64,000 nucleotides of DNA from the NCBI RefSeq assembly GCF_963678975.1, contig NC_089276.1, positions 22,551,059 through 22,615,058 on the forward strand. Direction: 5' to 3'. Shown piece after piece: positions 9,165 to 63,359 of the stretch. The DNA comes from Dysidea avara (lineage: Eukaryota; Porifera; Demospongiae; Dictyoceratida; Dysideidae). The notes beneath the pieces were generated by a model. That model worked only from the letters and a program-made list of their open reading frames with translations. It made no database searches and had not been told where the DNA came from. The first letter of the stretch is position 1. Each line of letters begins with the position of its first letter. The position numbers were made by a program, and so were the translations under genes.

Positions 9165-9969
9165 CAGGGGCATAGCCAGGATTTTTTGAAGGGGGGTTCC
9201 AGCACCAGCATTGAGTTACTAGAATTAAGCAGGGGTCTGGGGGCACAGCCCCCAGCCGCTGAGAGACTTTCAGTATTTTAATAAATCAAAACTCAGCAAA
9301 TTGCTATATTTTATGCAAAAAGTACATTAATTATGATGCATTAAGTGCCCATGGGACGAAGGTAGTACCCGATAAAGTCACCTAGTGGAAACAGACAGCA
9401 TAACACATAGAGACACATAATAGTAATCTGTAAGTGATGGTTATATCTCACTGTGGTATAGGAGCCATGAATCCACTGATACAAATGACAATCAAAACAA
9501 TATAACTATATAAATATGCATAGCATGAATTCATTTTGCATAACACAAGTGATAAATTACTGGAGCTCTATATCTTTAAACACTGCACACCAAAGCTATA
9601 GCAGTATAAGGTCATGCTAAGTTTTGCATTTAATGTTGGAATGTCTGAAAAACTTCATATGGACATGGATATTTACATGCATGTTCTATTAGAGTATACC
9701 TGACTGCTCTATTAGAGTATATACCTGACTGCTCTATTAAAGTATATCGATCTTTTAAACAAGTTTTGAAGAGGGCTCATGCTACCTATGTAAATCCTTC
9801 CCTGAGAGATGAATGTAAGTTTTATCAATTGTTGTGCTGTGCCATTACACTATATTGCTCACTCATTTTGTCCTGCCACACTAAATGGTATGTTAGGATC
9901 CTGCTTGCAGAAGTATAAATTTTACAGGGGGGTTCTGAACCCCCCGGAACTCCCCTCCCTATGCCCCTG
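9165..9969. mobile_element. Non-autonomous hAT-like element, 5-bp target duplication
   Basis: The ends are CAGGGGCATAGCCAGG and CCTATGCCCCTG. The sequence GCTCT stands immediately before and after, consistent with a 5-bp target duplication. Inside, GGGTCTGGGGGCACAGCCCC near the left end resembles the subterminal part of the hAT elements at 24,972 and 59,407. Three head-to-tail copies of the ATTAGAG motif lie at 9683-9752. There is no transposase. Confidence 0.75.
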
Positions 9970-11490
9970 GCTCTAGAATCCGCGTAGGATTGCTTAAGTA
10001 CAAGAATGTTGACCTTGAATATCTCAATGAAGTATTTTCATGTGTTCCATGGGATATCATAGAGTATGGTGCAGATATTGATCAGTGTTGGTTGCAGTGG
10101 AAAGATCTCTTTCTCGCAGCAATTTATCAAGTGGTTCCATCAGTAAAATGGAGTAAGCGTAAACTCAAGCATTGGTTCTCCCATTCAACCATTGAACTAA
10201 TTCACAAAAAGCAACAACTATACAAAGCTTATAAACTCAATCCCACTCCAACACTTCATGATCAGTATAGAAAACTCAGTAATGTTGTGCGCAAGTGCTG
10301 TCGGGACGATACTATCAATCATTCAGTTTCTGTGTCTGCGAGTTATCATTCTAACCCTAAGAGATTTTGGCGATGGATTAACTCAGTTAAGAGGTTTAGA
10401 ACTCCAATTCCTCTACTGTCTTATGCTGGACATAACGTTGCAGATGATTCTGAGAAGGCTGGTGTTTTTAATCAGTACTTCTGAGTTTTTACAAAAGAAA
10501 ATGTATCGAATCTTAATGAGCTTAAACCTAAGATCTCTCAAGTTACTACTATTGATTCAATCACAATTTCACCTGATGATGTTCTTGGCCAGTTGAGCTC
10601 TCTGGATGTTACAAAGTCCTGTGGCCCTGATTGTATTACACCTCGTATGCTGAAACTAGCTAACAGCTGATCATGTGTGCTATTCACTGAGTAGAGTGAT
10701 GAATAAGTCTGTTATTTCAGGATCGTTACCTTTTGACTGGATTTCTGCCAACATTGTTCCCATTCATAAGAAAAACGACCGACATTCTCCTGACAATTAT
10801 CATCCAATTAGTTTGACCTCAATCATTGTGAAAGGTTTGGAACGTATAATTCACAAACATTTATATTCAGTATTGAGAAAAAATGACCTTTTGAGTCAAC
10901 ACCAGTATGGCTTTCAACCGAATCGTTTTACAACTACACTTCTGCTTCAAGCTTTAGATGACTGGACACTCTCACTGGAGCGCCGTGAGTCTGTTCACTG
11001 CTTATTTTTGGACTATGCCAAAGCTTTTGACTCGGTTCCATATGAACGGCTACTTCTGAAATTAGAATCCCTTGGGATAAGTGGTAATCTGTTAGAATGG
11101 ATGTGCTCCTTCCTTACTAAGAGATTTCAGAAGGTGGTTGTAAATGGTTCTTACTCAGATTGGGCACCAGTCACTTCTGGAGTGCCACAAGGGTCTGTTC
11201 TGGGCCCTCTGTTGTTTTTACTTTACATAGATGAGCTGTCTTCAATACCTAATGTGTGCAAATTAAAGCTGTTTGCCGAAGATGTACTCCTTTATTTTTG
11301 TGTGAAATCAGTGAAAGATTGCCAGCTATTACAGAATGATCTCTCTGCTATAGTCTCATGGTCTAAACTGTGGCAGCTTAATTTGAATCCTCTTAAGTAT
11401 GAGGCTTTATCTATTACCAACAAAAGGAAGCCTATTACTTTTACTTATTTTATTGGAGATCAACCACTACAATGGACTAATCTTGTGAAG

Positions 11491-11890
11491 TAGGGCTGGG
11501 CGGTTTCTCGGTATTATAGTAATACCGCGGTATTGCAATGAAACGATATCTGTATCGCGTAGATTTCGGTGAAACGATAATATCACGATATCGATATTAT
11601 TACGATTTTTAGTGTTTGTGACAGCTTATTAAGCCCTTAAGGTTGTTATAATGCACCTCAAATAATCACGTGATACTACTGCAAACAAGGACCTAGTACT
11701 AGCTAGTCAATTTTTTTCACAAAGATCGAGATACTCTAATAGAACAGTCAGCTAGGATCGAGATACCTTAATAAAGCAGTCAGCTACTCTAATATAGCAG
11801 TCATCTTTAATAACCGCGATAAATAGTAATATCGTGATATATTTCTGCACGATATATCGTGATGCGAAACTCCAATACCGCCCAGCCCTA
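11491..11890. mobile_element. 400-bp hAT MITE inserted in the LINE reverse transcriptase
   Basis: The ends are TAGGGCTGGGCGGTTTCTCG and, inverted, AATACCGCCCAGCCCTA. The perfect 8-bp target duplication TTGTGAAG lies at 11,483-11,490 and 11,891-11,898; removing one copy restores the RT reading frame exactly. Three tandem copies of the ATTAGAG motif lie at 11,722-11,803. Confidence 0.95.
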
Positions 11891-12568
11891 TTGTGAAGTA
11901 TCTGGGGATTCAAATTAATAGCAAATTACAATGGTCTACTCAATGTCAGGCTGTTGCTACTAAGGCTGCTAGGGTTTGGAATGTTTTAAGACGTACCATG
12001 CTTGGGTGTGATTCGGAGGCTAGATGTAGAGCATACAAGGCTATAGTAAGGCCACTGTTGGAGTATGCTTGTGTAGTGTGGTATCCACATACTGCTAAAG
12101 ATGTGAATTTGTTGGAGGCTGTCCAGAGACGTGCTGCATGGTGGGCTTGTGGTAGTCGTTGGAACCCAACCACATGTTCTTGGTCTCTTCCCCATGAAAC
12201 CTGTTATCAAAAGTTGCATTTACCTCCCTTGTGTTCCAGGCGTGCGGACTATTTATCAGTTTGTACTCTTCAGGACATTCGTCACAATGGTTCCATTCCT
12301 TTTCTGAAGTACTGTACTTACCACACATTGGCTACACGTAGTCATTCTCTTTCTCTTGTACCACCCCTGTCAACAATTAATGCTAGGAGGTATTCTTACT
12401 TTGTACGGGTATGTTTTGTCTGTAATCAAGTGCCTATTGATATCTTGGGAATTGCAACCCGTACTGCTTTTCGCCATGCTGCATATAAACACTTCTGTGG
12501 CATTTTCTAAATAATTTATTGTTAATGTTGTATTGCTTTCGTGTATTGGTATTTTGCTGTGTAGCTAA

Positions 12569-12938
12569 GGCCACTCCAATTGGTAATTATGTTTCTGGCC
12601 CTTTGAAAATCATTTTTAGGTGCGGGCGGGCGGAATTCAGCAACAAAGCTATAATGAGGTGACTGTTCAAATAGAGTATTTACTGACTGTTCTATTAGAG
12701 TATATCGATCCGTACTATGCACTTTGCCCATTTCTTGCAGGTTTTCACTGATAAAATACAAATTATAACACTTAGATAGTTAGATTGAGCATACTTGTTG
12801 TAGCCCAATATTTTTTCTGAAATCCAGGCTTTTCAAAAAGCTGATGCGGGCATTTTACCCATGTATTTCTGAAATTTCACATTCTCCAAAAAAGGATGCG
12901 GGCGGTGGACCAGAAACATAATTACCAATTGGAGTGGC
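12569..12938. mobile_element. PIF/Harbinger MITE (370 bp)
   Basis: Terminal repeats GGCCACTCCAATTGGTAATT and the inverted copy AATTACCAATTGGAGTGGCC extend over about 30 bp. The 3-bp target duplication TAA stands on each side, as expected for Harbinger (TWA). A GCGGGCGGGCGG block near the left end and GCGGGCGG near the right end are shared with the elements at 50,394 and 51,126. Two ATTAGAG motifs lie at 12,661-12,709. Confidence 0.9.
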
Positions 12939-13264
12939 CTAATGTTGTCTTTGTTTTGTAATGTTGTATTTCGTAGTTATTTTTGTATTCTGGACAGTAC
13001 CTTACAGGGTTACACCTTTTGTACTTGTCCTTCCCGGTCTGTGGTAAATTGATAATTATACAACCAAGTAGCTACTAAGAATAATACGAAATGCGGTAAA
13101 ATTACGTCATTAATAATGAATGAAATAAATAATAAATAATGTTTGAGAAAACTACGAGGCCTAGAGACATGAACTAAGCGGGGATAGATTCGCCTGTGAA
13201 TGAAGGCACAACCGTATAATAAGTACGCCTGTTCGTGCTGATGACTTTACCGTACGTGTAATTC

Positions 13265-13655: not shown

Positions 13656-14103
13656 TAGGCATGAGGCTATTATGCTCCAAAAATTGAGCATTATGCTTTT
13701 AAGCAGTGCTCAAAAAATCACCTATTATGCTTTTGAGAATTGCCCATTATTCCCAAAATTATGCCACCATAATTGGCTAATAATGTCTGTTTATTGCTGT
13801 ATCAGGCCATTTTCATTGATGTTTAAGCTTCAAATGGTCTAGAATTCTTTAGCTGGTTGCTGTATTAGAGTATTTCATTTCAATGTGACTGCTTTATTAG
13901 AGTAAATAATACTCAGTGACTGCTCTATTAGAGTTTATGACTGCTCTATTAGAGTATCTCGATCTTTTTAAACGGAATTGTGCAATCTGCAAATTTTCCT
14001 ACTGTTAAAGCTTTATAATCACCTCAAAATGCTAGCATAATTCCTGATTCCCACACATACCTATTATTCCCGAAATCATGCCGGCATAATCGCCGCATCC
14101 CTA
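13656..14103. mobile_element. hAT MITE (448 bp)
   Basis: The ends are TAGGCATGAGGCTATTATGC and the inverted GCATAATCGCCGCATCCCTA. Flanks GAGACGAT and GAGCCGAT agree in 7 of 8 bases, an aged 8-bp target duplication. Unit B lacks this insertion at the same place, which confirms the borders. Four ATTAGAG motif copies lie at 13,858-13,968. Confidence 0.85.
13858..13968 (-). repeat. Cluster of four TCGAGATACTCTAATAGAG-type motifs
   Basis: Four head-to-tail copies (minus orientation) of the short motif that recurs at about 27 places. The core CTCTA-A-TAGAG is a near-palindrome of 5-bp arms. The units here are TGACTGCTTTATTAGAGT, TGACTGCTCTATTAGAGT and two similar copies, ending in ATCTCGATC. Confidence 0.85.
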
Positions 14104-15932: not shown

Positions 15933-17130
15933 CGCCCAGCACCACACCCTTGCATAATTACAGATTGCGCGAAGGAGAAGATCATTAAACATTCGCGGAG
16001 TGATAGCAGGAGAGCCAGAGGCTACTTTACACGTAAACAACAAGATTACAAGTAAGTTTAGATGTTTATAACTGCGTATTTTGTATGCAGGATATGCGCT
16101 GCAGTGAACAACCATGCAGCTGATGCCCAGCTGGGATACCAGCTGCATGATTCGCTCTTAAACAACCAACTGAAACAACCAGCTGATGCACTCGTGAACA
16201 ACAAGGTAATGAGTAATGTAATATTTGTAGTTGCATGCATTATACATCTTCATCCATCTGGCTTGCTAGCAACTGGAATTGTTTTCCACCTAGCTTACTA
16301 CGCTACTGTAAGTCTGTAATAAACAAGAAGATGCATTGCTGCATATATATACAACAATGTGTAACTATCTCCTGTATGTTGTGCATGGCTATATATATAT
16401 ATACATAATATTATAGACTGATCACTGTGCCAACCAGTGCCAATGCCACACCGCTGATATACTGGCACACAGGGGCGTAGCCAGAACCCGGGCCACCCGG
16501 GCCCAGGCCCGGGCATCAATAATTCGAGATACTCTAATAGAGCAGTCAGATCGAGATAATATATCAGTCTCAGTATTCAGAGAAGCAATGTAGCAAGCTA
16601 CGTGTGTAGTTAGGTATGCTGAACTATGCAAATCATCGAGATCTGTTGTATCACATGATCAGTAGCGCATGTCGGATGCATGGTGGAAATGGCGAAGGAG
16701 TGTTGAGTGGTTGAGGCATATTAAAAGGCAGCAGCTGCGATAAACTTGAGTGATCGTGTTATACATGTGTGAGGTGAGCACAAACTGTGAACAGTTGATG
16801 TATATTATCTGATGATCGGTTTGTATATTTGTCACATGTTGCTGGCACGTGATGTCTCGAATACATTGGAGTACAAGTCAAGTCTAAAGTTACTGACATC
16901 AACAGGAGGACCGACCGAGAGGATAATGTATGCCCTGAAGGAAGTATTGCCAACTAAGCGACTCGAGTGTGGAGGGTTCCCATGTACTAGAAAATTTGAA
17001 GTTGGCTGTCTGGAAGTGAAGATTAAGTTAGTATTAGCTACAATAGGTTTATAGTTTCTATAAGCTGCATAAACAGCAGTGTGTAGGTTTTAGCTAGTTA
17101 GATGCACAAACAGCACTTTTAATGTTACTG

Positions 17131-20100
17131 CCTAAGGTAGGGTCCGCAACGTGAAAAATTAAGTTGCAAGAAACAAATCCCTGACTATCGTAGTATGTTA
17201 CCCTTAGTGCCCCATCACTAATACTACCCTTGGTTTGGAACTGAGTTCCCTTGTTGGAGCAACACGCGGATTTTAATATCTCACGTGATTGATCTTTATT
17301 CCGTGCGCTCCAAAGAAGACGTCCAGAGCTCCCAGATTCTGAGTGTGATATCAAGTGTTGTTGGTTTACCAAACCATGTATAGAAGTGAGTAAAATTTTG
17401 CCTGTGTTTTCCACGGAGGCTGATTTTCTGCGGATGGGTCGAGAATTTTTTTTGTTCGAGGTGCTCTACCAGCCAAGAGAAGAGAAGCCAATCCTATCAC
17501 ATAAGATGGTAATGAAGTTGGATGTATAAGTATTCTACACACCAAGTTTGAAAGAGCTGCGACCTTTCTAACCATCTGGCTGGCAGAGATGAAATTATCA
17601 GTGCATTGATCTTGGTGGGTTGCCTCCTACCTACTGTTACAAACTGTCTTCCTATAGGAGCTTTAAATCACAGGAGATCCAGAAGAACATCTGAGGTTTC
17701 TAAGAAGTGGTCAAATTCTTGACTTAAAGTTTAAAGGTCATTGCATGCTACTACTCTAATAGAACATTCAGTACCCTATACGAAAAACTATGTAGTTCAG
17801 TAAACAATTACCATCTGCTTTTGGATTGTGTAAATTGAACAGCTGTATAGATTGCTTGGAAAGTGTGTATTTTATGGACATTTAAATCTTAAGATGCAGT
17901 TGCTGGAGAGTCTAATAGTATTGAATTTTGAAATCCATGCCATTCATATGCTATGAAGTTGTATCAGCTGGAGCACTCTATTGCAGAACCAGCTCAGGTA
18001 ATCTCACATTTTACATATACCTGGTTTTCTATACAAAAATTAATAATAATTATGTATCTCATGCAACTGCCTAAGCAAATAACAACTCATGTGCAGTATA
18101 GCCATAGTACTGTAATGCTGCTGTGTATATGGCCTATGAGTTTGTGAAATTATTGATTCATGACTGAGATATAGGTAAAGCAGAGCTTCACAGTTTTATT
18201 TGTCAATGTGGGTAGTCTATTACTTTATAGGTGTAGTAGACCAGTATTTTACACATGTTTTTACAGTGTCTTTTTATCATGTTTTGCACAGGTATATAGG
18301 GCAGGGAATCACAAGGCCATGGTCCCCCAGTTTTGGTGGTCAATTCTTGTAGCAAAAGATTAATCACAACTGTTAGTAGCTGCTTAATTTTTAAAGTAAA
18401 AATGACCACCCAAAGTACTGTCTCAGAGCCCTGGGGCATGCATCCAGATGGAATCTGTGTATGTATGGGCTAATTAAAGTGGAACTTTTTACATTTAATT
18501 GCAAGCAGTTGATAGTTAAATGTAAGGAGATGTGCGTGGTTGAATACTTCCTTGAACACGTTAGTGTACTTTATTGTCCAAAGAATACATTTAACCTGTT
18601 GTATTGATTTCTGCTTGTCACAGGTCCATATACATTGGACTGCTCTGTGTAACACCACCTGTTCAAAATAACAAACTTATCTTGAAAATACTCATCAATC
18701 TGCACTGTTATCTACTTTAATGAAGCCAAATTTCTGTTCAACTAGATCTATTAATTTTGTATCTCTGCCTATAGCTATGTCATTGTTCCCTTATCATATT
18801 TTTTGTTCCATTGATTGTTGAGTGCAGCTGTAATTAAGACGCTGTCAACAAAGTTAATAAATGCATGGCTAGAGCAGACTTAAAAGCATACAAATCACTT
18901 GGGGTATCAATTCAGCTAACTGGTTTGTAAAGAAATAATTGGCTATTAAGTTTGCACAATATTTAGCATATTGATGGATAAGAAACAGGTGATTGTGTTA
19001 ATTTATTTAAGCGTATGGTCATACACATGTATGATTTATTTATTGTCTGCCATGGATACTTATTGTAACTACATGTGTGTAATGTAATAGACTAATCGCA
19101 CAATTTGTTTTTGAAGTGACCTAGCATGCGGGTAAGTTAATGTACGGTACGCCTCACGTATAGCTTTATAGGATGTGGAAAATGGATGCAGGAGCTGGAA
19201 TAAGGAATGAAAGACCTGGCAGTTTGTCTACTTTTTGAGCACAATGCAACTACTGAATATAGATAATTATTATATAGAGTTAATTATGAAGGAAACTTTG
19301 CGGTGATAAATTGTGCTACACTTGAAAGTTGTTAACACAACTTTATGGTAAAACAGTTTATTCCAGTCAGGGGCAAGGGGGAGCTGTAGCCCCTGTAAAA
19401 AAATATGGGGTTTTCCCCCCCTAAAATTATCTGTAACTGTGATGGAGAGCTTAGCTCAATAGCATCAATATTTTGAGATACTATAATAGAGCAGTCAAGA
19501 TTGAGATATCCTAATAGAGCAGTCATAGTATTCTTAGAGCCATTAGAGGAGCAGTGTAGCAAGCTACACATGTAGTTATAAATAAGGAGATATAGTCTAG
19601 TTGGTGAAGGGCAACTATTGCCAGCAGGTAGTGACCTTTTTTGGTATTCAACTTACAGCTAGACCATGGCATCATCAATCTAGACCCCATCCCCCCTCAC
19701 CCCCCTAAATAAAGGTGTGTGGTCCACCCTTACTATTCCTGCATTAAAATTATACTGCCAATAATTCCATGAACTATCATTAAATTCACAACTATCATGG
19801 ACAATTCAGTTTTGGTGACTGCTTTCCAAAGTAATGTGAGTGAGATGATGAGTGTGCAACAGGGAAGTGCAACACTTAGTGTGCTGGTCCTAGCATGAAA
19901 TCAACTACATGGCAGGGGTCTGGAATTACATCCTAGAAGACTTTTGTGATTTAACACCTTGATTGAGAGTGCTAATGACAAAATGGAAATTTTAATGCTA
20001 TAAATTAACACTGTAACTTTTAAAAGTCTATACCACAAATGAAACTATAACTACAATTACAACTAAGTGGGTATATAACTAACTACACATGTCAACAATT

Positions 20101-23391: not shown

Positions 23392-23762
23392 CAGGGCCGC
23401 CTCCAGGTGGGGGAGGGGGGGGGGGGGCAACTGGGGCATTTTCCTCCGGGCCCCGACCTGAAAGGGGCCCCAGGAGGTCCCATGAAGGGCACCTTGAATA
23501 CCTGTTTAAAAGATCGATATACTCTAATAGAGCAGTCAGATATAAATACTGTAATAGAGCAGTCACAGCACTCTTCAGAGGAGCAGTGTAACAAGCTTAT
23601 AAATAAGGAGATATGGTTGTTGAGTGGTAGTTATTGTCATTGTCAAGAGGCAACTTATAGCTTGGGTGAAGTTGTGATTCAGAATGCATGGAAACCTCCT
23701 TGCCTCTGGGGCCCCACTTCAACTCTTTGCCCTGGGCCCCTTAATTTCTCTGGGTGGCCCTG
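23392..23762. mobile_element. Non-autonomous hAT element (371 bp)
   Basis: The ends are CAGGGCCGCC and GGTGGCCCTG. The exact 8-bp duplication GGTGTATG lies at 23,384-23,391 and 23,763-23,770. Two ATTAGAG motifs (23,511-23,565) are followed by GAGGAGCAGTGTAACAAGC and ATAAATAAGGAGATAT. The same string follows the motif pair at 19,473, and its first part also follows the pair at 16,523, so these elements share one core. Confidence 0.92.
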
Positions 23763-24570
23763 GGTGTATGTACTTGTTTGTATGTGATGCAGTCCTTGTA
23801 AGAATAATCAAGACACACGGTAGTGTGTCGTGCGGCCCAGAAGCCGGCGCGCAACACCCGTGAGTATATTGACAGGAAGAAAGAAAACGCAATTTTCGCA
23901 CCTCCGTAGCTCTGTGCTTCCTTGATGAAACAAGACAAGTTTTGCTGTGGACACTGCCTCCAACTTCAGCACTCCACATTTAAAATTTGAGCGAAATTGC
24001 TCTAAGCGTTCCCGAGATATGCGAATTCAAAAATTGGCTTTGTCTATTCGATTTTTTTTTCTTCTTATTTTTCTTTCTCTTGTCGCACACTTGCAAAAAC
24101 TGCTATAAAACGCGAACGCCATATCCGATTGCCTTGAAATTTGGCACACAGAAGGGGGTATGGTATAAAGGCGCATCACTGTACCACACGCCTACAGGGT
24201 AAACCGCGTATGGGAAGAAGTTGAAAATCGGTGGGTGAATAGGTTAACTATTGAACCTCAAACCTTTTGTGGTATAAATCGAGCTAAAAACCAGGAAGAT
24301 ATAACGAAAACCAAAAGTGTGTAACAACTACGCAATCGAGATTAGCTAATAAAAAACGACTGCTTGCCATGCACGCCTACCAGATAAACCGCTTGGGGTA
24401 ATGCTTTGAAAATCGCTGTATAGATGGTGTAATCATCTTAGAAAGGCTCTTCAATGGTGTAGAAGAATCAGAAATAAAGCCACGGAGTTATAACACGAAA
24501 TCCAATTTGGTGTAGCAAGTGCGACATCGAGATACTCTAATAGAGCAGTCATCATAATAGAGCAGTCACC

Positions 24571-24971
24571 CTGAAGAGAATTCAAGAGATCAGCTAGAAA
24601 CAAGTAACCTGTATAGAGATCAGCTACAAAGAAACCACCATGTAGAGAGTTCAGCTACAAACAAATCGCCCTGTAGAGAGATCAGCTAGAAGAAGTTTCC
24701 TTTTAGAGTTCAGCTGTAAACAAATCACCATGTAGAAAGATCAACTAGAAGAAGTCACCTTGTAGAGAGTTCAGTTACAAAGAAACCACCATGTATAGAG
24801 TTCAGCTATAAACTAGTGACCTTGTAGAGACATCAGCTAGAAGAAGTCAACTTGTAGAGGGTTCAGCTACAAAGAAACCATTCTGTAAAGAGCTCAGCTG
24901 CAAACAAATCACCTATATACAGAATTCAGAAACAAATCACCCTGTAGAGAGATCAGCTAGAAGTAGAAGAA
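24571..24971 (+). repeat. Minisatellite array, left part
   Basis: Two alternating units of about 30 bp: GTAGAGAGTTCAGCTACAAA followed by CAAATCACCCT or GAAACCACCAT, and GTAGAGAGATCAGCTAGAAG followed by AAGTTACCTT. It continues after the hAT insertion at 28,679. The unit length is not fixed to a multiple of three and no frame stays open. Confidence 0.9.
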
Positions 24972-27900: not shown

Positions 27901-28678
27901 TAAAGGAGTGTGACAAGGATATGTTTCCCAACATATTTGTACTTTTACAGATTGCTTGTATCATTCCAGTAACATCCTGCGAATGTGAGAGGAGTGCAAG
28001 TGGATTGAGGCGTTTAAATAATTTTCTAAGGGCATCAATGGGAAAAGATCGGCTCTCCCATTTGGCATTAATGCATATACACTATGACACTCCAATAGAT
28101 CTTGACAGTGTAGTAGATACTTTTGCCACACAACATCCACGTAGACTCGAGCTGAATTCACTGCCCTGAATTTCACATAATTATTATTATGATTTGGCAC
28201 TTGTAACATTTTTTAAACCACCTACAGTTTAATAGCGATAACAATTAACACTTTTATAGTGTACAAATTCTTTATCATGATAATATTATGTGTATAACTA
28301 CATAGTCCCTTGTTGCAATGCATATGGTACAGAATTGACACATCAGTAAAAATCGTGCTATTTTAGTGGCTGAAATGTCACCAAATTCAGTCTTTTAACA
28401 TGTATTCCTTAACAAATTTCCTGGGGGGGCATGCCCCCAGACCCCCCTAGTTTTTTCGCACACCATATGCATAATTATGGTGCAGAATTAGTAAATAATT
28501 GTGCTCTTTTAGTGGCTCAAATTCAGTCTTTCAGCATGAATTTTTTTTTAATTTCCTGGGGGAGCATGCCCCCAGACCCCACTAGTTTTGTGTGCTTCGC
28601 ACACCCTCAGCATCACACTAAAAGGTCCACTTTTTCTTCAAAAGAACCTACCAACCTAAAGGTCTGCCTACGGCCCTG
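24972..28678 (+). mobile_element. Nearly complete hAT transposon (3.7 kb)
   Basis: The ends CAGGACTGTAGCCAAGAG and GGTCTGCCTACGGCCCTG are imperfect inverted repeats; GGTAGGTTCGGACGAACT near the left end pairs loosely with AAAGAACCTACCAACCT at the right. AAGAA stands on each side, fitting a 5-bp target duplication within the minisatellite. The interior codes for one transposase on the plus strand. Two GGGGGCATGCCCCCAGACCC-type blocks near the right end (28,425 and 28,558) recur in the small element at 59,407-60,246, which is therefore a probable deletion derivative. Confidence 0.88.
25203..28169 (+). pseudogene. hAT transposase (TTF-type finger / DUF4371 / hAT C-terminal), lightly damaged
   Basis: Exon 1 is 25,203-25,386 (basic, KQKERERKRSAS), joined to exon 2 from 25,775 by a GT-AG intron in matching phase. 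Exon 2 shows a TTF-type finger (HPWMVYSE, DGVFCIICAIFC), then DUF4371 and the RNase-H-like core: FYAILADEVTSHN (first Asp), HGQGYDGASNMA (second Asp), HCLNLVISKSC, and the hAT dimerisation end CECERSASGLRRLNNFLRAS with LALMHIHYD. Lesions: a one-base loss in a run of A near 26,232 shifts the frame, and CGA to TGA at 26,448-26,450 gives an in-frame stop in the conserved ALRGD-type position. From 26,451 to 28,169 the frame is fully open (the first Met is at 26,511). Only two lesions suggest recent activity. Confidence 0.88.
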
Positions 28679-30012: not shown

Positions 30013-30189
30013 GATTTCTGTAATAAATATATGTATTGTATATTTATATAATTTGTACATTTACTGATAAAATATTTAAAGTACATCTGCTTCATCTTTT
30101 CTTCTTTCTGTGGTAAAGAAAAAAAGATACATTAAAAAAGTCCCAAAGCCGGCTATAGGCCGGCTTTGTGGTATACAAATACAAAAAGA

Positions 30190-39017: not shown

Positions 39018-39391
39018 CAGCGGCGGAGGAAGTAGTTGATATGAGGGGGGGCTTCGCTGAGCTGACCCAGACTTCTTTCTATAGTTTGGTAAGGTGAGAC
39101 CAAAAAAAAAAAAAAAAAAAGGTCACAACCAGCTCACAAGAGCTTTCCACCTCACCAGCTACCATTTCTAGCTGATAAACTACATAAAAATCCTTACATA
39201 GCTCGCTACACACTGACTACTTTATTAGTGTGACTGCTCTATTAGAGTATCTCGATCTTTATCACGGTTTTCAGCCCCACTCCAAGAAAGATAATTTCGG
39301 TGTGATATCATTCTGAGGGGGGGCTAAGCCCCCCCTCAGCAGACCTAGGGGGGGCTTTAGCCCCCTAGCCCCCCCCTTTCCGCCGCCTATG
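39018..39391. mobile_element. hAT MITE (374 bp) with poly-A core
   Basis: The ends are CAGCGGCGGAGGAAG and CTTTCCGCCGCCTATG; the exact 8-bp duplication CTGATGAA lies at 39,010-39,017 and 39,392-39,399. The interior has GTGAGACC, 19 A, GGTCACA, then CAGCTCAC, TAGCTGATAAACTACATAAA, and ATTAGAG motifs at 39,213-39,259. The element at 62,067 has the same core with different ends. Confidence 0.95.
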
Positions 39392-40994: not shown

Positions 40995-41224
40995 CAGTGC
41001 TCCCTCAATTATCCAAGCCCCTCCTCTATTATCCAAACACTCAGTTATCTGTACAGTAAAATGACTGCTCTATTAGAGTATTTTGTCTAAGATTATTATG
41101 TTCTGTTACAGTATTTCAACATGGCTTGGTAAATAAATAAATAAATGGGCTTTGATTACCCGACCTTTTGATTATCTGAACATGTCTTGGTCCCCAAGGG
41201 GATCGGATAATCAAGGGAGTACTG
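40995..41224. mobile_element. pogo/Tigger-type MITE
   Basis: CAGTGCTCCCTCAATTATCC at the left and GGATAATCAAGGGAGTACTG at the right form the typical pogo/Tigger inverted repeat; TA follows the right end, and a TA lies one base from the left end. A subterminal TTATCCAAACACTCAGTTAT adds further TIR-like copies. One ATTAGAG motif lies at 41,061-41,082. Confidence 0.85.
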
Positions 41225-48575: not shown

Positions 48576-50390
48576 AGCAGCAGAATAATACTATAGAACT
48601 GTTAGTTAAACAGACTTGAAGTATTTTATAGACACAGAAGTACAGGATGTAATGATAACTGCTCAAACATTACAATTGTATGATGTCATAAGATATATCA
48701 GTACCTATACAGGATATGGCTAAGTGCTATGTTTAAAGGAAGGGTGACATGAAATTTTAATACACACATTTTTATATCAGCATGTATAGGTTGAGATATA
48801 CACACAGTGCAAAAAACCATTTTAAAAAATGAAATTGTTTTATGAAGTTTACAATACAGTATGTGTATAATTTCAGACAATACAGATTTATAGCATTTCG
48901 GCAGCTCACAAGATGGTGCTGGGGTTGGCTTGGAAAACATGTAAGGATAACATTGCCTAGCTGTGCTGTTCAAAGAATACAAAATGAATTTTCATCAGAA
49001 ACATATGCAAGATTCAAATATCCAGAAATATCCAGATTTGTGATATATTATTGATATAGTATATTATTACAAAATTTACAGTGTAATGATTATTTACTAC
49101 CAAATCTACTTGTGTGCTGCTGTGTGGCAGTCTGCTTATCAGGGTGGTCATAACCTGCACATAATGCCTTGGGAATCTGTTGTGTTCTTTGAGTCTTCCT
49201 ACCTCCCTTCTTACCCCATTCATAATTTCATGTAGTAGTTAGTTCTTCCACATAGTCTACACAAGATTATCTAAATTATGATATGAGGCTATAACAATAC
49301 TCACTGTATGTTGCCTGTACAAAAACTTTCCAAACTATAATACCACCCTTTTTATACTTGGGATATGCTATATCATGTCCCATCTTTCATTACAGCCTGT
49401 GTACGACCTGCATTTTCATTGAAGCCGGTGCAATACTGCTGGTTGTAGCTAATCTGTGAACGAACCAGTCTATTATTATTACAGTAGCTACATATGTTTT
49501 GCCTATAGTTGTGCAATTTTACTGCTTCTATAGGACCAATAATTGTCCCTTAATAGGTTACCTAACATGTGTAGGATCAACTGTAAGATCATACTGAAAG
49601 TGATATGAAATATGTGTATATATATATATCATGCATTAGCTATATAACACCAAACGGAACTCTTAAATGTTTATGTTTTTACCTGTGCTCCATCCCCATG
49701 CATGCAGGTATGAAAATACCACAGACTTTGAGGCAAAGCGTATAACACAGAGACCTCAACTTGGAAACTAACTTGGAGTGAGACCTGAAGTTGAAATGCG
49801 TGAGATTTGCTTACTTATGTGCGTGAGGTCTTGTCTTAGTAGGCCAAAAATTCCTGTTAAAATTGCAAAATTTGCAACTTCCTTTGGCTATTTTCCTCCA
49901 TTTTTAGCCATTAGAGCACTGTTTAGTGCTTTGCCAAGAGGTTTGAAGTGAAATACATTAGAGCTTAATTTTCCAGGAATTACAATTCGTGAGATGGAAA
50001 ACCATGCGTGAGACAACAATCCAATGAGTGCCACCCCGAGTCTCACGCGTAATACGTGCCGAGAGAGTTCAAGTGAGGTGTCTGCAACATTGTGAAAGGA
50101 CTCCATGCACCTAGCAATGAAGATGTTTGATACTTGGCAGACAGTCTACTAACATCATTGCAATGCTGTGGATTTGTTATCAGCGGTGTAGTTCTCACTG
50201 GCCTTGGTATCTATTATTAATACACCATTTTGAGTATAGCAACCATATAATCATACAGTACGGCTACGATAGTAATTGTATAGTAGGGACCACAAAGGAG
50301 TAGGCGTGGCTCACGGAATAATCAGTCAGCCTCAATCAGTTTCCCTGACGACGATGAGGTAATATTGGTTAGGCATGCAGTAAGACCAAT
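48576..50390. other. Intergenic, no gene
   Basis: This is the upstream flank of the beta-helix gene. There is AT-rich sequence, a (TA) run near 49,617, and a 49,730-50,100 stretch with repeated words (GTGAGACCTGAAGTTGA, GTGCGTGAGGTCTTG) that looks like an old repeat. No core promoter element could be assigned. Confidence 0.45.
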
Positions 50391-50393
50391 GAA

Positions 50394-50714
50394 ACTTGAT
50401 TACCAGTTTCTCGCTCAGATTTTTGAAAATTTGATGAGGGCGGGCGGTTATTATTCATTATTTTCCAAAAGCACAACACACATCCCAATCATGAAGATTT
50501 CTGCCAAAAAAGTGAGATCTACATAGCTAAAATACGTTACTAATCCATATAACAAATGATTTTTCCATTAGAGTATAGCTGATTACTCCATTAGAGTAAA
50601 GGTGACTGCTCTATTAGAGTATTTCAATCTGAAATACCAATAATGAAATTCCGTGCGGGTGTATCAAAAGCATGCGGGCGATGACGCGAAACTGCTAATC
50701 AAGTTTCATTGGCC
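50394..50714. mobile_element. PIF/Harbinger-like MITE (321 bp)
   Basis: GACCAATGAAACTTGATTA at the left is mirrored by TAATCAAGTTTCATTGGCC at the right, with TAA on both sides. It has GGGCGGGCGG near the left end and GCGGGCG near the right. ATTAGAG motifs lie at 50,565-50,630. Confidence 0.88.
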
Positions 50715-51125: not shown

Positions 51126-51517
51126 GGCCACTCCAAATAAATTCTCTGTTTCCCGTCCTGGATTCAGGCATACTTTCATGCGGGCGGGCGGTCCATTTCC
51201 ATTATTTCATTGTAAGATTGGCTAGCTTTTCAAGCTATTATTTGCCTGGCACAGCCAAAAAGGCTGCATAAAAGTATGCTTAAGCTTGTTCCTTCCTTTG
51301 TGAGCTGCAAAAATAACTCAAACGTAAAGTTCGTGCTGACTTGATAGCACTGGTGACACGTGAGCTGACACTGTTTCAAGATAGCTTTTACTGAGCCTAT
51401 CAGTATGCAAGAATAACCGGAAAATAATGGAAGAATACGGAATGATGGAATATTTAGAGCTGGTAGTAACCAGATGGGGGCGGTAGACGGGAAACAGAGA
51501 ATTTATTTGGAGTGGCC
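51126..51517. mobile_element. PIF/Harbinger MITE (392 bp)
   Basis: GGCCACTCCAAATAAATTCT extends to a ~35-bp inverted repeat mirrored by AGAATTTATTTGGAGTGGCC. TTA stands on both sides. The left GCGGGCGGGCGG and right GGGGGCGG blocks match the family at 12,569. Unlike its relatives it has no recognisable ATTAGAG motif. Confidence 0.92.
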
Positions 51518-51529: not shown

Positions 51530-52017
51530 TCCTTTGTGTCCCATTTACGGACCCGTCGATTTTGCCAGCAAAATTTTTGGCATAGTGGGTGGGTAAAAAC
51601 AATGAGCAAAATGCTGGCATAATAGGTGTAATTTTTGTGAAGTGGACATAAAAATTGCACAAAAGATCGAGATACTCTAATAGAACAGTCAGACACGCTA
51701 AAATATCGACAATGCATAGCTATAATTGTTACAGGAACAACAAGTGACAATCGAGATACCCTATAATAAAACAGTCACACATGTTAAGCAATATTAGCTA
51801 GCTTCTTGCTTTACATGCATATGTTAGAAGTAATTGCTGATCGAGATACTCTACTAGAATAGTCACTTTAAGGCGAAACTGTAGGCTTTGCACTTGGAAA
51901 TATTCATTTAACAAAGGTCAGTGCTGAGCATAATGTATATAATTCTTGAGCAAAATATTATAATATGGAGCATAATAGGTGAGCTAGGTGGAAAAAAAGC
52001 ATAATATACTGGTCCCT
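51530..52017. mobile_element. Aged hAT-like MITE remnant
   Basis: Words such as GCATAATAGGTG and GCATAATA near both sides resemble the internal sequence of the 13,656-14,103 element, and the right side ends TGGTCCCTA. Exact ends are unclear. It holds three ATTAGAG motifs at 51,663, 51,750 and 51,840. Confidence 0.5.
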
Positions 52018-52450: not shown

Positions 52451-52476
52451 TTATGTACAAAAAAAAAGTTAAGAAA

Positions 52477-52940: not shown

Positions 52941-53170
52941 CAGTGGAACCTTGATTATCCGAACTAATTGGGGGGGGGGGGGGGGGGGGGGGGTTTGGAT
53001 AATCGAAAATACGTAAGATCGGACATCCATACATTTATATACTGAGCTTTGCTCAACTACTCTAATAAAGCATACACTTTTTGACAAAATACCCTAATTG
53101 AGCAGTCGTTTTGGTGTTCGGATAATCGAGAGTTCAGTTAATCGGTGTTTGGATAATCGAGGTTCCACTG
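52941..53170. mobile_element. pogo/Tigger-type MITE with a 24-base G run
   Basis: CAGTGGAACCTTGATTATCC and GGATAATCGAGGTTCCACTG form the inverted repeat; TA stands on both sides. A run of 24 G (52,970-52,993) follows the left end. Degenerate ATTAGAG motifs lie at 53,057-53,108. Confidence 0.92.
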
Positions 53171-58556: not shown

Positions 58557-58870
58557 ATCTAATCCAAAACAGCCAAGCTGTAAAGAGTATGGCCCTCAAA
58601 AAGGCTATGGTGAAAAAAGATGTGAAATCCAAGGTGGCGGCCAAGAAATGGCTGTGATGGTAGGTTAATGATAAACATTTTAATAATGACAATTCAGGTG
58701 AGTTTGCTGCTGCTTGGTCTTGGCACAAAATTCACCTGAATTCTCATTATTAAAATGTTTACCATAACCTACCATCACAGCTGCCACCTTGGATTTTACA
58801 TCTTTTTTCACCATAGCCTTTTTGAAGGCCGCACTCTTTTTACAGCTTGGCTGTTTTGGATTAGATTTCA
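58557..58870. repeat. Long hairpin, copy 2
   Basis: Inverse arms start TAATCTAATCCAAAACAGCC and end GCTTGGCTGTTTTGGATTAG, with the loop near 58,710. It corresponds to 30,190-30,518. Confidence 0.88.
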
Positions 58871-59019
58871 CTTCTTTTTGTATTTGTATACCACAAAGCC
58901 GGCCTATGGCCGGCTTTGGGGCTTTTTAACCTATATTTTTCTTTACCACAGGAAGAAAAGATGAAGCAGATGTTAAATACTTTAAATATTTCTGATTTAT
59001 CAGTAAAATTGTACAAATT

Positions 59020-59022
<3 letters not shown>

Positions 59023-59065
<43 letters not shown>
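59023..59065. repeat. (TA)n microsatellite
   Basis: About 20 TA units between the hairpin and the minisatellite. Confidence 0.92.
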
Positions 59066-59067
<2 letters not shown>

Positions 59068-61165
59068 CAGAACTCTACATGGTGTTTCTTTGTAACTGAA
59101 CACTCTACAAGGTGACTTCTTCTAGTTGATCTTTGTATAGCATGAATTATTTGTAGCTGAACACTCTACAAGGTAACTTCTTCTAGCTGATCTCTCTACA
59201 GGGTGATTTGTTTGCATTTGAACTCTCTACAAGGTAACTTCTTCTAGCTGATCTCTCTACAGGATCACTTGTTTCTAGCTGATCTCTCTACAGGGTGAAT
59301 TATTTCTAGCTGAACTCTTCACAGGGTGCAGCTGAACTCTATACATGGTGGTTTCTTTGTAACCGAACTCTCTACAAGGTGACTACTTCTAGCTGATCTC
59401 TCTATACAGGGGCGGATCTAGGATTTATAAAAGGGGGGGGGCTAACTCAAGGTACTAATCTCTTGGGTAGAGGTGTGTGAAGCACACTTCCCAGCATGCG
59501 AAGCATGCTGGAACTAGGGGGGTCTGGGGGCATGCTCCCCCAGGAAAATTTTGAAAAATAGATGCTAAAATACTGCAATTTGGAGACATTTCCACATAAA
59601 ATTCATACCTGTAGATATTTTATATACTGCCTTTAGATTATATAGGTCTCTCTGAAGCATTTTGCTAATGGAAAAGTTTGGGTAGGTACAGACAACCAAG
59701 TACATGATGCACCCTTCTTACAATTGCACAGGTGCATGTTATGTTGAAAGTGGAAAATTTTGAAATTTGAACAACACAAGATTGAATCTGAGAGCATTTT
59801 CAATGGAAATTGTGTACCCGAATTAAGTATTTCCATACATATTAACTACACAAGCAGAATGAAGCCCTTTAAACAGACCAATGCACTTCATTGTATGTAT
59901 AGGTGCAGGCAGATTTGGAAAAATTCCATAACAGAACCAACTACATGTTTCTAGTGAATGTTCTATTAGAGTAGTTAGCTGACTGCTCTATTAGAGTATC
60001 TCGATCTTGTACACCTCCAATGCTGATCCGGGTCCTTGTTGCATAAACTTTAGCAAAAATCCACTGATAATACCTTGGAAAGATGTTTATAAGGTGGTTT
60101 TATGAGTATTTGTATTATTAGTGATCATATAATTATGCTAAGACAAAATTTCATTGCAATACTCAGCATATTGATCAAGTAAAGCCTAAATATGAAGGGA
60201 GGGGCTTCAGCCCCCAAAGCCCCCCCCCCCCCTGGATCCGCCCCTGCTATAGGGTGATTTGTTTGTAGCTGAACTCTCTACAAGGTAACTTCTTCTAGCT
60301 GATCTCTCTACATTTGTAGCTGATCTCTCTACATTTGTAGCTGAACTCTCTACAGGTGATTTGTTTGCAGCTGAACTCTCTACATGATGGTATTTTTTGT
60401 AGCTGAACTCTCTACAAGGTAACTTCTAGCTGATCTCTCTACAGGCTGATTTGTTTGTAGCTGAATTCTCTACAGGGTGATTTTTTTGCAGCTGAACTCT
60501 CTACATGATGGTTTCTTTGTAGCTGAACTCTCTACAAGGTAACTTCTTCTAGCTGACGTCTCTACAAGGTCACCTGTTTGTAGTTGAACTCTCTACATGA
60601 TGGCTTCTTTGTAGCTGAACTCTCTACACGGTAACTTCTTCTAGCTGATGTCCCTACACGGTCACTGGTTTGTAGCTAAACTCTCTACATGGTGGTTTCT
60701 TTGTAACTAAACTGCCTACAAGGTAACTACTTCTAGCTGATCTCTGTACAGGATGAATTGTTTGTAGCTGAACTCTCTACAAGGTAACTTCTTCTAGCTG
60801 ATCTCTCTACAGGGTGATTTGTTTGTAGCTGAACTCTCTACAGATGATTTGTTTGCAGCTGAACTCTATACATGATGGTTTCTTTGTAACTGAACTCTTT
60901 ACAAGGCAACTTCTTCTAGCTGATCTCTCTACAGGGAAATTTGTTTGTAGCTGAACTCTCTACATGTTGGTTTCTATGTAACTGAACTTTCTACAAGGTG
61001 ACTTCCTTTAGCTGAACTATCTCTTTCCGTAGTTGAACTCCCTACAAGGTAACTTCTTCTAACTGATCTCTCTACAGGGTGAATTGTTTGTAGCTGAACT
61101 CTCTAAAGGGTGATTTGTTTGTAGCTGATCTCTATACACGTTACTTGTTTCTAGCTGATCTCTTG
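59066..61165 (-). repeat. Minisatellite array, inverted copy
   Basis: Units such as AGCTGAACTCTCTACAAGGT and TAGCTGATCTCTCTACAGGG are the reverse complement of those at 24.6-30.0 kb. It is interrupted by the hAT element at 59,407-60,246. Confidence 0.9.
59407..60246. mobile_element. Non-autonomous hAT-like element (840 bp)
   Basis: CAGGGGCGGATCTAGGA and its inverse GGATCCGCCCCTG are flanked by CTATA on both sides (5-bp duplication). Near the left end, GGGTCTGGGGGCATGC followed by TCCCCCAGGAAAATTTT matches, inverted, the right subterminal part of the autonomous element at 24,972-28,678. Two ATTAGAG motifs lie at 59,959-60,009. Confidence 0.85.
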
Positions 61166-62066
61166 AATTCTCTTCAGGGTGACTGCTCTATTAGGGTGAC
61201 TGCTCTATTAGAGTATCTCGATCTTGCACTTGCTACACCAAGTTGGATTTCGTGTTATAACTCTGTGGCTTTAAGTATGATTCTTCTACACCATTGAAGA
61301 GCCTTTCTAAGATGATTACTCCATCTGTACAGCGACTTTCAAAGCATTACCCCAAGCGGTTTATCTGGTAGGCATGGCAAGTAATCGTTTTTATTAGCTA
61401 ATCTCGATTGCATAATTGCTACACACTGTTGGCTTTTTTTATTGTATCTTCCTGGTTTTTAGCTCGATTTCTTTCAAACCACAAAAGGTTTGAGGTTCAA
61501 CAGTTAACCTATTCACCCACCGATTTTCAGCTTCTTCCCATTAGTGGTTTACCCTGTAGGCATGACAACATATTGGTGTTATTTTTCGTGAATAATCACT
61601 AATAACTCTTTGCCTGTTTATCATATTCCAGCCAAAGTTGGTACCGAGATGTGCCTTTTTACCCTCCTTCTGTGTGTCAAATTTCAAGGCAATCGGATAT
61701 GGCATTCGCATTTCATAGCAGTTTTTGCAAGTGTCCGAAAAGAGGAAGAAAAATAAGAAAAAAACAACAAAAAACTAAGAAACTAAGCCAATTTTTGAAG
61801 TCGCATATCTCGGGAACGCTTGAAGCGATTTCGCTTAAATTTGGTAATTGGATTACTGAAGTTGGAGGGAGTGTCCACAGCAAAAATCGTCTTGTTTCAT
61901 CAAGGCAGCACAGAGCTACGGAGGTGTGAAAATTGCATTTTCGTTCTTCCTGTCACTATACTCACGGGTGTTGCATGCCGGTTTCTTGAGCCGCACAACA
62001 CACTACCATGTGTCTTGCATTTAAAAATTGTCAATTCAAAAATGAAGTAGGAATCTATGCAAATAG

Positions 62067-62388
62067 CAGGGGTGGATCCAGACTTATAGAAAGGGGGGGT
62101 CAAAATTGAACTGAGGCACTACATTGTCTCCGGTTTGATAAGGTGAGACCAAAAAAAAAAAAAAAAAAAAGGTCACATCCAGCTGACAATAGCTGCCCAC
62201 CTCACCAACCACGCATTTATAGCTGATAAAGTACATAAAAATCCTTAAATAGCTCACTACACACTGTTTTAATACTGTGACTGCTTTATTAGAGTGACTG
62301 CTCTAATAGAGTATCTCGATCTTGGTATACTAAAAATTTTTGGAGGGGGGTCAAGAGCCCCCTTTGACCCCCACTGTATCCGCCCCTG
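62067..62388. mobile_element. hAT-like MITE (322 bp) with poly-A core
   Basis: The ends are CAGGGGTGGATCCAG and GTATCCGCCCCTG; flanks GCAAATAG and ATAAATAG agree in six of eight bases. The core (GTGAGACC, a run of about 20 A, GGTCACA, TAGCTGATAAAGTACATAAA, motif cluster at 62,278-62,324) is the same as in 39,018-39,391. Confidence 0.85.
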
Positions 62389-62405
62389 ATAAATAGTAGT
62401 GGAAC

Positions 62406-62544
62406 AAGAGATGAATGATGGTGTTATAGCATAGCTTGGTGGGAAGTCTCTACTTTGGCATTAAACAAAATAATTGTTATAGCCAATGTGCCAAAGTAGG
62501 GACTTTTCCACCTAGCTATGCTGTAATACCATCATTCATCTCTT
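62406..62544. repeat. Hairpin MITE (139 bp)
   Basis: AAGAGATGAATGATGGTGTT through CTACTTTGGCA is mirrored by TGCCAAAGTAG through ACCATCATTCATCTCTT; arms are about 55 bp with a loop of about 30 bp. Confidence 0.9.
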
Positions 62545-63359
62545 AAAATCCTCTTAAAAAATCACTGAAATAATACTAGTATATAATACACCATTAAACA
62601 CTTAAAGGTGGCCGGATATAGAATTTTTTTTAAAAATCACCAAAACTCGAAAATTAGTCTCACTGCCTGACCACAATCACAAGGCTAGAGGCCAAACAAA
62701 GCAGCGCACGGCCACCATTTTATGCCACAGTAACAAACTCACCAGTGGGATGTGCCTTTTGGGGTTCTGACGAGTGTAGGCCTGTGCCTTGTCTTTTCTT
62801 CTATCTTCAATCAGGCTGCTTGTCTTCTTCTTCATCCAATGAAACTATACCAAGGTGTTAATTTTCTGTATCAACACTTTCTTTCAGCAGCATATTTAGA
62901 TACCACAGAATTATTTCAGAGCTGGATTTCAGAAACGTTCAGTCCCAGTGCTACTATAAGAGGTATCTAGCAAATTCGTGATTGGGATCCCGTTCGCGAC
63001 AGCTTCACAACCACACCCAACAAATAAAGATCTAGGTGGACTAATAGTAAGAGTATGGAGACCACAACTTTTAACAATCTAGCTATTTACTTAGCAGTAC
63101 TTAACAGTAAACAAGATCCTTATTGGTCTAGCTGGCTGCACACCCCTTGGCTGACTCAAGATATTCTAATACAACATCATGTATGATATTCTAATAGAAC
63201 AGTCACAAGTTACACTGTAGCTAGCTGTACTACAACAAAAAAGCTAAACAAACTAGTGTTGTGTTAATTTAGAAATGAAGTATGTCCCTAGGATGTTTTT
63301 CAAAGGTGGAATTTTGGGCAGCGTGCAAAATTTTTGGGGCGATCCCTACTTAAATGGTA
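62545..63359. other. Intergenic, no supported gene
   Basis: Open frames here have no recognisable match. A motif pair (63,157-63,207) is the last of the ATTAGAG family in the window. Confidence 0.4.

Follow-up and report, generated by a model that had tools for sequence, protein, structure and literature searches.

We identified a long, sharply bounded unit of 29 bp, AAGATCGAGATACTCTAATAGAGCAGTCA, that lies inside hAT and Harbinger MITEs and, in a diverged version, inside pogo MITEs, and is represented by about 14,000 exact 20-mers in one animal genome, that of the sponge Dysidea avara. Judging by its sequence, the unit is homologous across these hosts and not convergent. The explanation that fits best, in which we have moderate confidence, is a discrete cis-element that may have been copied between MITEs and kept, and that is probably a putative host-protein-binding site.

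Abundance, edges and layout of the unit

The motif was noticed in a 64-kb window (the whole stretch of DNA analysed), where the initial annotation took it for 20 bases followed by AGTCA. That it is real and present at many loci was borne out. The 20-mer, at up to three mismatches, gave 19 matches in the window and none in 100 dinucleotide shuffles. The 25-mer TCGAGATACTCTAATAGAGCAGTCA, at up to eight mismatches, gave 44 copies, against 0–3 hits (mean 1.2) in 20 first-order Markov controls of window length; copies at 7–8 mismatches (for example, 17746 and 57316) are individually compatible with chance. Twenty-five of the 26 positions listed in the annotation have such a 25-mer copy no more than 8 bp away; at the remaining one, 20654, just the 11-bp core TTCTAATAGAG is present and AGTCA is missing. 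The annotation had also proposed a genome-wide count against a control, and this returned 13,773 exact 20-mers in 550.8 Mb and none of the reversed sequence. A chance origin is thus ruled out by the shuffle, Markov and reversed-sequence controls. At up to seven mismatches the window has 23 loci, and a 190-kb sample of unselected genome, made up of 19 stretches of 10 kb, has 25, making the window about 2.7 times denser than that sample; extrapolation from the 25 sampled loci gives about 72,000 genome-wide.

Alignment of 26 backgrounds revealed abrupt edges and a unit of 29 bp in place of the 20 + 5 bases first described. Information content is about 0.6–2.4 bits per column from −4 to +24, and 0.16 and 0.17 immediately outside. 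Columns −4 to −1 played no part in choosing any of the backgrounds, and columns 20–24 were unused in selecting 12 of them (exact 20-mer) and used for the other 14 (25-mer scan). Three of 325 background pairs scored 6 or more in the upstream flank, compared with a mean of 0.13 pairs in 500 shuffles, none of which reached three. We count these three pairs in favour of the copying explanation, as probable traces of copying together with extra flank.

The 29-bp unit is usually trailed within about 35 bp, in the same orientation, by shorter copies (TACTCTAATARARCAGTCA), and a second, shorter copy lies downstream on the same strand at 43 of 47 exact loci. The head-to-tail arrangement reported in the annotation was confirmed: at a score cut-off giving 136 hits, versus 9–18 in shuffled sequence, we counted 47 neighbours on the same strand at up to 150 bp, and 43 of these were spaced 17–37 bp apart. 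Opposite-strand neighbours within 200 bp numbered 12, and the eight at offsets 5 and 20 are taken as overlaps of the near-palindrome. Helical phasing of the copies was rejected, as spacings of 17, 21, 25, 27 and 32 fit no single period.

Such head-to-tail copies in variable number are those of a minisatellite, and it is possible, though doubtful, that the unit is a neutral minisatellite seed, without function, that spreads by template switching and slippage since it is common, with MITE transposition multiplying the copies. The number of copies ranges from one to three among six aligned members of one repeat, F1, degeneration is common in secondary copies, and the few backgrounds with common extra flank would also be explained. 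A seed of this kind should, however, leave ragged edges, whereas the left and right boundaries of the unit are at constant positions in nearly all 26 backgrounds and the adjacent flank scores under 6 in 322 of 325 pairs.

Host elements and retention of the unit

By TIR and TSD, the hosts comprise hAT elements (8-bp TSD), hAT-like elements (5-bp TSD), two Harbinger families (TAA/TTA) and one pogo/Tigger family (TA) (Table 1). The hAT assignments made in the annotation hold for 11491, 23392 and 39018, by exact 8-bp TSDs, and for 59407, by a 5-bp TSD; that of 13656, with an imperfect TSD at the locus, is upheld by its relative L008, and TSDs of this type are exact in L008, L051 and L078 (TTTACCTG, GACACAAG and CACACAAT, respectively). 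Both Harbinger assignments stand, the second element starting at 50384, not 50394. The pogo/Tigger assignment is clear at 52941; the element at 40995 has Tigger-like ends (up to five mismatches) and a decayed TSD, and is 71% identical to the former over 145 bp.

Table 1. Motif-bearing elements and motif copies in the window
Feature	Position	Strand	Ends	Motif copies and context
hAT-like MITE	9165..9969	−	TIR CAGGGGCATAGCCAGG; 5-bp TSD	three, 9678-9750
hAT MITE	11491..11890	+	TIR TAGGGCTGGGCGGT; 8-bp TSD TTGTGAAG	three, 11726-11803
Harbinger MITE 1	12569..12939	−	TIR GGCCACTCCAATTGG; TSD TAA	two, 12660-12708
hAT MITE	13656..14103	−	TIR TAGGGATGCGGC; 8-bp TSD, 7/8 here	four, 13854-13962
Exact 25-mer	16524..16548	+	hAT-like left end at 16470; no right end found	
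Two motif copies	19473..19525	+		within hAT-like interior related to L006
hAT MITE	23392..23762	+	TIR CAGGGCCGCCTCCAGG; 8-bp TSD GGTGTATG	two, 23514-23565
Unit and second copy	24527..24568	+		inside F1 repeat (31-bp minisatellite family)
hAT MITE	39018..39391	−	TIR CATAGGCGGCGG; 8-bp TSD TTCATCAG	39214-39255
pogo/Tigger-like MITE, decayed	40995..41224	−		one, 41062-41086, core exact
Harbinger MITE 2	50384..50714	−	TIR GGCCAATGAAACTTG; TSD TAA	three, 50557-50627
Three dispersed copies	51667..51865	+		at 51667, 51753 and 51841; host untyped
pogo/Tigger MITE	52941..53170	+	TIR CAGTGGAACCTYGATTATCCGAAC; TSD TA	two, diverged, 53052-53108
hAT-like MITE, family F2	59407..60246	−	TIR CAGGGGCGGATCYAGG; 5-bp TSD CTATA	59955-60004
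Unit and second copy	61180..61221	−		within second F1 repeat
hAT MITE	62067..62388	−	TIR CAGGGGYGGATA; TSD 6/8	62278-62319

Beyond the window, 8-bp TSDs of the hAT kind were found at all four of L056, L067, L084 and L086. Among 18 end pairs examined with CAGGGGCGGATCC or CAGGGGCATAG ends, 13 had an exact 5-bp TSD, three were one base off (L026, L081 and L085) and two fit 8 bp (L022 5026 and W62067); we class the 5-bp-TSD elements as hAT-like from the resemblance of their TIRs. Equal TTA or TAA flanked 20/21 copies of Harbinger 1 and 19/21 of Harbinger 2. All 21 copies of the Tigger family have TA on both sides; the TIR of the family is of the CAGTGGAACC type, which we take to be Tigger. Similarity between F1 copies begins near 23803; a Helitron identity for F1 was considered, given a hairpin near the 5′ end, and dropped as no CTRR end was seen, leaving F1 untyped. 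A de novo scan for TIR plus TSD returned 120 overlapping rows, 11 with the motif, too redundant and permissive to yield a rate. The MITE at 11491 adjoins a reverse-transcriptase ORF.

In four families the motif was present in 84 of 84 copies examined. At least one core was found in 21/21 copies each of Harbinger 1, Harbinger 2 and Tigger, and at least two in 20/21, 21/21 and 21/21, respectively. The young hAT family (11491), for which there were 782 first-look candidates, keeps the unit within one mismatch of its own form in 21/21 copies, and 8-bp TSDs were exact in 20/21; its 39 other scored copies are 99% identical, and with a divergence of about 0.4% it was recently active. The motif is nearly whole in the hAT and Harbinger families. 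The Tigger family has no more than two diverged 18-bp cores (2–3 mismatches of 18; 8–12 of 29), with the first ten bases absent. The central claim, that MITEs belonging to different superfamilies and unrelated at their ends share one motif, is therefore sustained for hAT, Harbinger and pogo/Tigger, with the reservation that Tigger offers diverged cores.

The annotation named two circumstances that would undo this claim. One, a genome-wide frequency equal to chance, does not apply, the frequency being far higher. The other is that all hosts are a single transposon family with diverged ends, which we consider scarcely credible. Several hAT end types, with 5-bp and 8-bp TSDs, do have an interior of about 200 bp in common besides the unit, so some of the diverse hosts are related in their interiors. 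Harbinger, Tigger and hAT, in contrast, have proper TSDs and are unlike in their TIRs, in the length of their TSDs and, outside the array, in almost all of the interior, which refutes a single host family for the three superfamilies; between them the motif array is the main interior match, with otherwise only weak, short matches.

Variation within three families gives a weak, suggestive indication of constraint on the unit. The first copy varied at 19/1386 positions, the other non-CpG interior at 337/12034 and the TIRs at 35/3272; the pooled Fisher p of 0.001 for first copy versus interior is optimistic, because copies within a family are not independent. Ranked within each family against the other interior windows, the first copy stands only at 0.285, 0.096 and 0.263, and strong constraint is unsupported by these ranks. 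The second copy varies above average in both Harbinger families (22/395 and 22/411), and the third copy of Harbinger 2 at the average (11/420). Unconstrained secondary copies in the Harbinger families suit a neutral minisatellite seed, as does the loss of the prefix in Tigger; a first copy about half as variable as other interior DNA, though not beyond doubt, speaks against it.

Proposed origin and maintenance of the unit

Among the three mechanisms offered in the annotation, a host-protein site kept by many elements fits best, and a minisatellite seed or a very small mobile sequence less well. We propose that the unit passed between transposons as a short filler copied during post-excision gap repair, with template switching as the likeliest mechanism; the copying step is one that we infer, because no direct ancestor without the motif was found. 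The unit was then multiplied through each host's own transposition, as the many copies with TSDs show. Its persistence in successful families would reflect probable binding of a host protein, with CTCTA-A-TAGAG as the symmetrical half of a putative composite site, and this might lead to open chromatin or to transcription in cells where transposition counts. No known regulator was matched to the unit. Against a protein site stand the diverged, prefix-less cores of Tigger and the existence of motif-free MITEs, such as the Harbinger MITE at 51126-51517, by which the motif is not universal among MITEs.

A cis-site needed for transposition itself, where a shared helper protein would serve all three kinds of MITE, hAT, Harbinger and Tigger, is unlikely. 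The first copy varies about as little as the TIRs, and the unit is found in a recently active family. But the three superfamilies use different transposases, the motif lies anywhere between about 60 and 250 bp from an element end, and the same Harbinger MITE does without it.

The sharp edges on both sides could also be those of a very small mobile sequence able to insert itself into DNA, including the interiors of MITEs, and for 10 of 47 exact loci no 80-bp stretch of flank recurs at any of the other 46; of these loci, L006, L058, L065 and L076 at least look related to hAT families. We rate this as quite unlikely. Inspection by eye of the 26 aligned backgrounds revealed no TSD flanking the unit, and recombination ends hardly fit in 29 bp. 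The annotation had suggested looking for motif-free members with an empty site. Using the motif-free half of Harbinger 1 as query, we obtained 477 candidates and scored 40, a sample biased towards the most similar copies; none of the seven checked by subtraction had an empty site, their motif halves being of full length at 137–155 bp.

It is also conceivable, if improbable, that the unit parasitizes transposons as a minimal selfish sequence without ends of its own, being copied whole between MITE families through some dedicated or biased mechanism and riding each host's transposase across superfamilies. Other origins were rejected: the window and 14 of 19 sampled 10-kb loci had no Rfam match at gathering score, viral contigs held no exact 19-mer match, and a 257-Gb prokaryote collection held one stretch, about chance by our own estimate. 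A U6 search, made for a PSE-like snRNA-promoter idea, gave no hit, but neither did any of its 14 controls, and it bears on that idea in neither direction.

Comparison with known systems

No report of the motif appeared among the literature listings searched. If our explanation is true, unrelated transposons exchange a cis-element, and possession of it may be a condition of success in the sponge genome; the benefit that a non-autonomous element draws from its interior, and the route by which DNA passes between transposon superfamilies, would become open to testing. Transposons spread regulatory sites, usually through one family or a set of related families at a time. Brassica transposons, for instance, reportedly amplified E2F sites, likewise multiplying a regulator's site, there a short and known one.

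The CERP2 and CELE2 MITEs of Caenorhabditis carry a motif pair, m1m2 (tandem in CELE2), in over a thousand copies in each of the two families; it is bound by the host protein HIM-17 and drives germline promoters (PMC9757741). As in the sponge, MITEs carry a paired motif in many copies. There, m1m2 lies in the inverted repeats of two families described as related; here, a 29-bp unit lies in interiors across three superfamilies. Protein binding and promoter activity are described for the HIM-17 system and putative for the sponge unit. The Tetris foldback transposon of Drosophila virilis, which by the title of its report supplied building blocks for a satellite (PMC4079207), is one transposon family, whereas the sponge repeat crosses superfamilies. 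In carrot, LHY/RVE-type motifs are described in 187 MITE families (PMC13102513), so that one transcription-factor-binding core recurs across MITEs of several superfamilies, as the putative site does here. The carrot core, as that text presents it, is 9 nt long and AT-rich, possibly a set of random variants according to its authors, and present in fewer than 10% of copies in the larger families; the sponge unit, in contrast, is 29 bp long, appears homologous and occurs in every examined copy of four families.

Abundance of the motif and its host elements

The initial annotation had placed the short motif at about 27 loci of the window, with MITEs from more than one superfamily as hosts where these could be typed. 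As can be seen by scanning with the 25-mer (the 20-mer followed by AGTCA), 25 of the 26 coordinates that it listed indeed correspond to a copy at ≤8 mismatches; the other, 20654, holds the 11-bp inner core, with no 25-mer copy at ≤8 mismatches. Altogether, the window contains 44 matches to the 25-mer at this threshold (20 Markov controls averaged 1.2), and 19 matches to the 20-mer at ≤3 mismatches (0 in 100 shuffles). In the whole genome assembly, which includes the window (G000; 550.8 Mb, 108 contigs, 15 of them chromosome-sized at 14.2–65.1 Mb), the exact 20-mer occurs in 6,876 + 6,897 copies, and its reversed control in none. We found 25 loci at ≤7 mismatches in 19 unselected 10-kb stretches, which extrapolates to about 72,000 loci genome-wide, chance matches included. 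The window, with 23 loci in 64 kb, is richer in motif loci than this unselected sample.

Hosts were typed from their terminal inverted repeats (TIRs) and target-site duplications (TSDs), and four MITE families were surveyed copy by copy (20 fetched copies plus the window copy for Harbinger 1). Harbinger 1 has equal TTA or TAA at both ends in 20/21 copies, and carries the core in 21/21 and two cores in 20/21, with 4–6 mismatches to the 29-bp unit. In Harbinger 2, TSDs are equal in 19/21 copies, and all 21 carry two or more cores (2–4 mismatches to the unit). Every one of the 21 Tigger copies is flanked by TA on both sides and has two cores, the best of which is 2–3 mismatches off; the prefix of the unit is not kept (8–12 mismatches of 29). 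The hAT family has exact 8-bp TSDs in 20/21 copies and the unit within one mismatch of the family form in 21/21; with 33 mismatches in 8,400 bases, it has moved recently.

A permissive TIR and TSD scan yielded 120 overlapping rows, only 11 of which contain the motif. A motif-free Harbinger MITE in the window offers a possible comparison for empty sites. In Tigger copies L089–L108, CpG sites differ from the consensus at 10.8% (TIR) and 12.6% (interior), and other sites at 1.4% and 2.9%; the excess of CpG change is a sign of DNA methylation.

The features of the window are collected in the table. Copies of F1, a long repeat, begin to be similar near AATCAAGACACACGGTAGTGTGTC, which is capable of forming a hairpin; no TIR of F1 was seen. 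The two ORFs around the young hAT MITE are placed as if the latter had split a retroelement ORF (10660–12510). The 1597-aa ORF we take to resemble large sponge proteins, and in our judgement the proteins of the window in general resemble demosponge ones.

Host elements and their neighbours in the window. Candidate numbers are first-look counts, unverified as copies; fetched copies were drawn from the best-scoring 40.
Feature	Coordinates	Remarks
Harbinger 1 MITE	12569-12939	570 first-look candidates, best 40 scored
Harbinger 2 MITE	50384-50714	760 first-look candidates, best 40 scored
Tigger MITE	52941-53170	1,144 first-look candidates, best 40 scored
hAT MITE	11491-11890	782 first-look candidates; 39 other scored copies 99% identical
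Decayed Tigger-like element	40995	Kin of the 52941 MITE; core exact
Harbinger MITE	51126-51517	Ends GGCCACTCCAAATAAA, TSD TTA; no motif
F1 long repeat	23803-30519; 58557-62017	31-bp minisatellite arrays and one or more motif copies
F1 minisatellite arrays	24585-24959; 28679-30014; 60334-61163	31-bp
F2 hAT-like MITE	59407-60246	5-bp TSD; nested in F1 minisatellite array
hAT-type transposase ORF	26451-28169	Dimer_Tnp_hAT, DUF4371; between two F1 minisatellite arrays
Reverse-transcriptase ORF	10660-11493	RVT_1; reaches the young motif-bearing hAT MITE
Second ORF	11863-12510	After the hAT MITE
TA-flanked palindromic elements	30201-30514; 58562-58861	Ends ATCCAAAACAGCCAAG
1597-aa ORF	43797-48590	Chlamydia-PMP-repeat match; hydrophobic stretches near end (by eye)

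The 29-bp unit and its possible conservation

Aligning 26 first copies, each taken from a different host background, gave the full unit, AAGATCGAGATACTCTAATAGAGCAGTCA. Columns −4 to +24 carry about 0.6–2.4 bits each, and the flanking columns 0.16 and 0.17. The backgrounds were hand-picked: 12 had been located with the exact 20-mer, the other 14 with the 25-mer scan. Columns used in selection are little proof; columns −4 to −1 played no part in finding any of the 26, nor columns 20–24 in finding the 12, and both sets are well kept.

In later copies of an array, the first ten bases are mostly missing and ACTCTAATARARCAGTCA is retained. A second core (≤5 mismatches of 18) follows on the same strand within about 50 bp at 43 of 47 exact loci, a count made on that strand alone and without a control. 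The commonest gaps between the first copy and the second core are 3, −1 and 7 bp (16, 14 and 6 loci, respectively). When both strands were scanned, there were 47 same-strand neighbours within 150 bp and 12 opposed ones within 200 bp, 8 of the latter at offsets for which the near-palindrome would account.

We compared variation at non-CpG sites within Harbinger 1, Harbinger 2 and Tigger. Departures from the consensus affect 7/462, 5/462 and 7/462 positions in the first copy, 131/5460, 139/4235 and 67/2339 in the rest of the interior, and 11/1302, 12/1133 and 12/837 in the TIRs, respectively. Pooled over the three families, variation of the first copy is half that of the interior (Fisher p 0.001; the copies are related to each other); within families, the ranks of the first-copy window (0.285, 0.096 and 0.263) are not significant. 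Second copies vary above average in Harbinger 1 and 2 (22/395 and 22/411) and not above it in Tigger (6/420), and the third copy of Harbinger 2 is average (11/420). It is suggestive, at most, that the first copy may be conserved beyond its surroundings in these families.

Relations among hosts and spread of the unit

The 47 exact loci all lie within 3.3 Mb of the start of contig C1; 40 were picked among listed places and 7 came from the genome count, and L004 was left out owing to its overlap with L003. Five clusters (15, 9, 5, 5 and 3) emerge, with ten loci left single. The former correspond to a hAT group, the F1 minisatellite repeat, a TAGGGATGCGGC hAT, the hAT-like F2 and a TAGGCACCGGCC hAT (TSD CAATGGGG in L057). 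Within the hAT group, MITEs with CAGGGGCGGATCC ends and 5-bp TSDs (L052, L064, L073, L077 and L087) and those with CATAGGCGGCGG ends and 8-bp TSDs (L056, L067, L084 and L086) have, besides the unit, about 200 bp of interior in common, including a GTGACC-T(n)-GGTC stretch; an exchange of end types thus seems to have taken place within hAT as well. Among 18 CAGGGGC-type end pairs, the 5-bp TSD is perfect in 13 and deviates by one base in 3, and the other 2 fit 8 bp. A sensitive comparison across superfamilies, covering 13 elements (omitting within-family pairs and CAGGGG-type pairs of 5-bp against 8-bp hAT), revealed the motif array, poly-G runs and a few short matches at E 0.02–0.05, and further stretches common to Harbinger MITEs.

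Convergence by point mutation is implausible given near-identical 29-bp strings in unrelated elements; the sequence has been copied. Extra upstream flank (score of at least 6) is common to 3 of 325 background pairs (500 shuffles gave a mean of 0.13, and none reached 3): hAT families 9165 and 23392; F2 and locus L065 (GCATTGGAGGTG); and Harbinger 2 and L072, a locus hAT-like by our reading. These pairs are consistent with short stretches having been copied along with a small amount of flank. We infer that such stretches may have passed between elements, as by template switching in gap repair, after which everything copied would decay except the unit. Donor, recipient and empty ancestor were never seen together, and no empty copy of Harbinger 1 was among the 7 checked of the best 40 scored with a query lacking the motif half.

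Putative role and precedents

The most economical reading of the sequence is that the unit is a putative composite site for a host protein, combining a half that is palindromic (5-1-5) with a directional repeat. We found no description of this motif in the literature searched. The closest precedent for the unit is HIM-17 together with the m1m2 pair of the Caenorhabditis CERP2/CELE2 MITEs (PMC9757741). The carrot MITE motif is a short AT-rich core and differs from the sponge unit in kind (PMC13102513). The spread of a cis-element by transposons is known; what we call new is a long, sharply bounded unit that crosses superfamilies.
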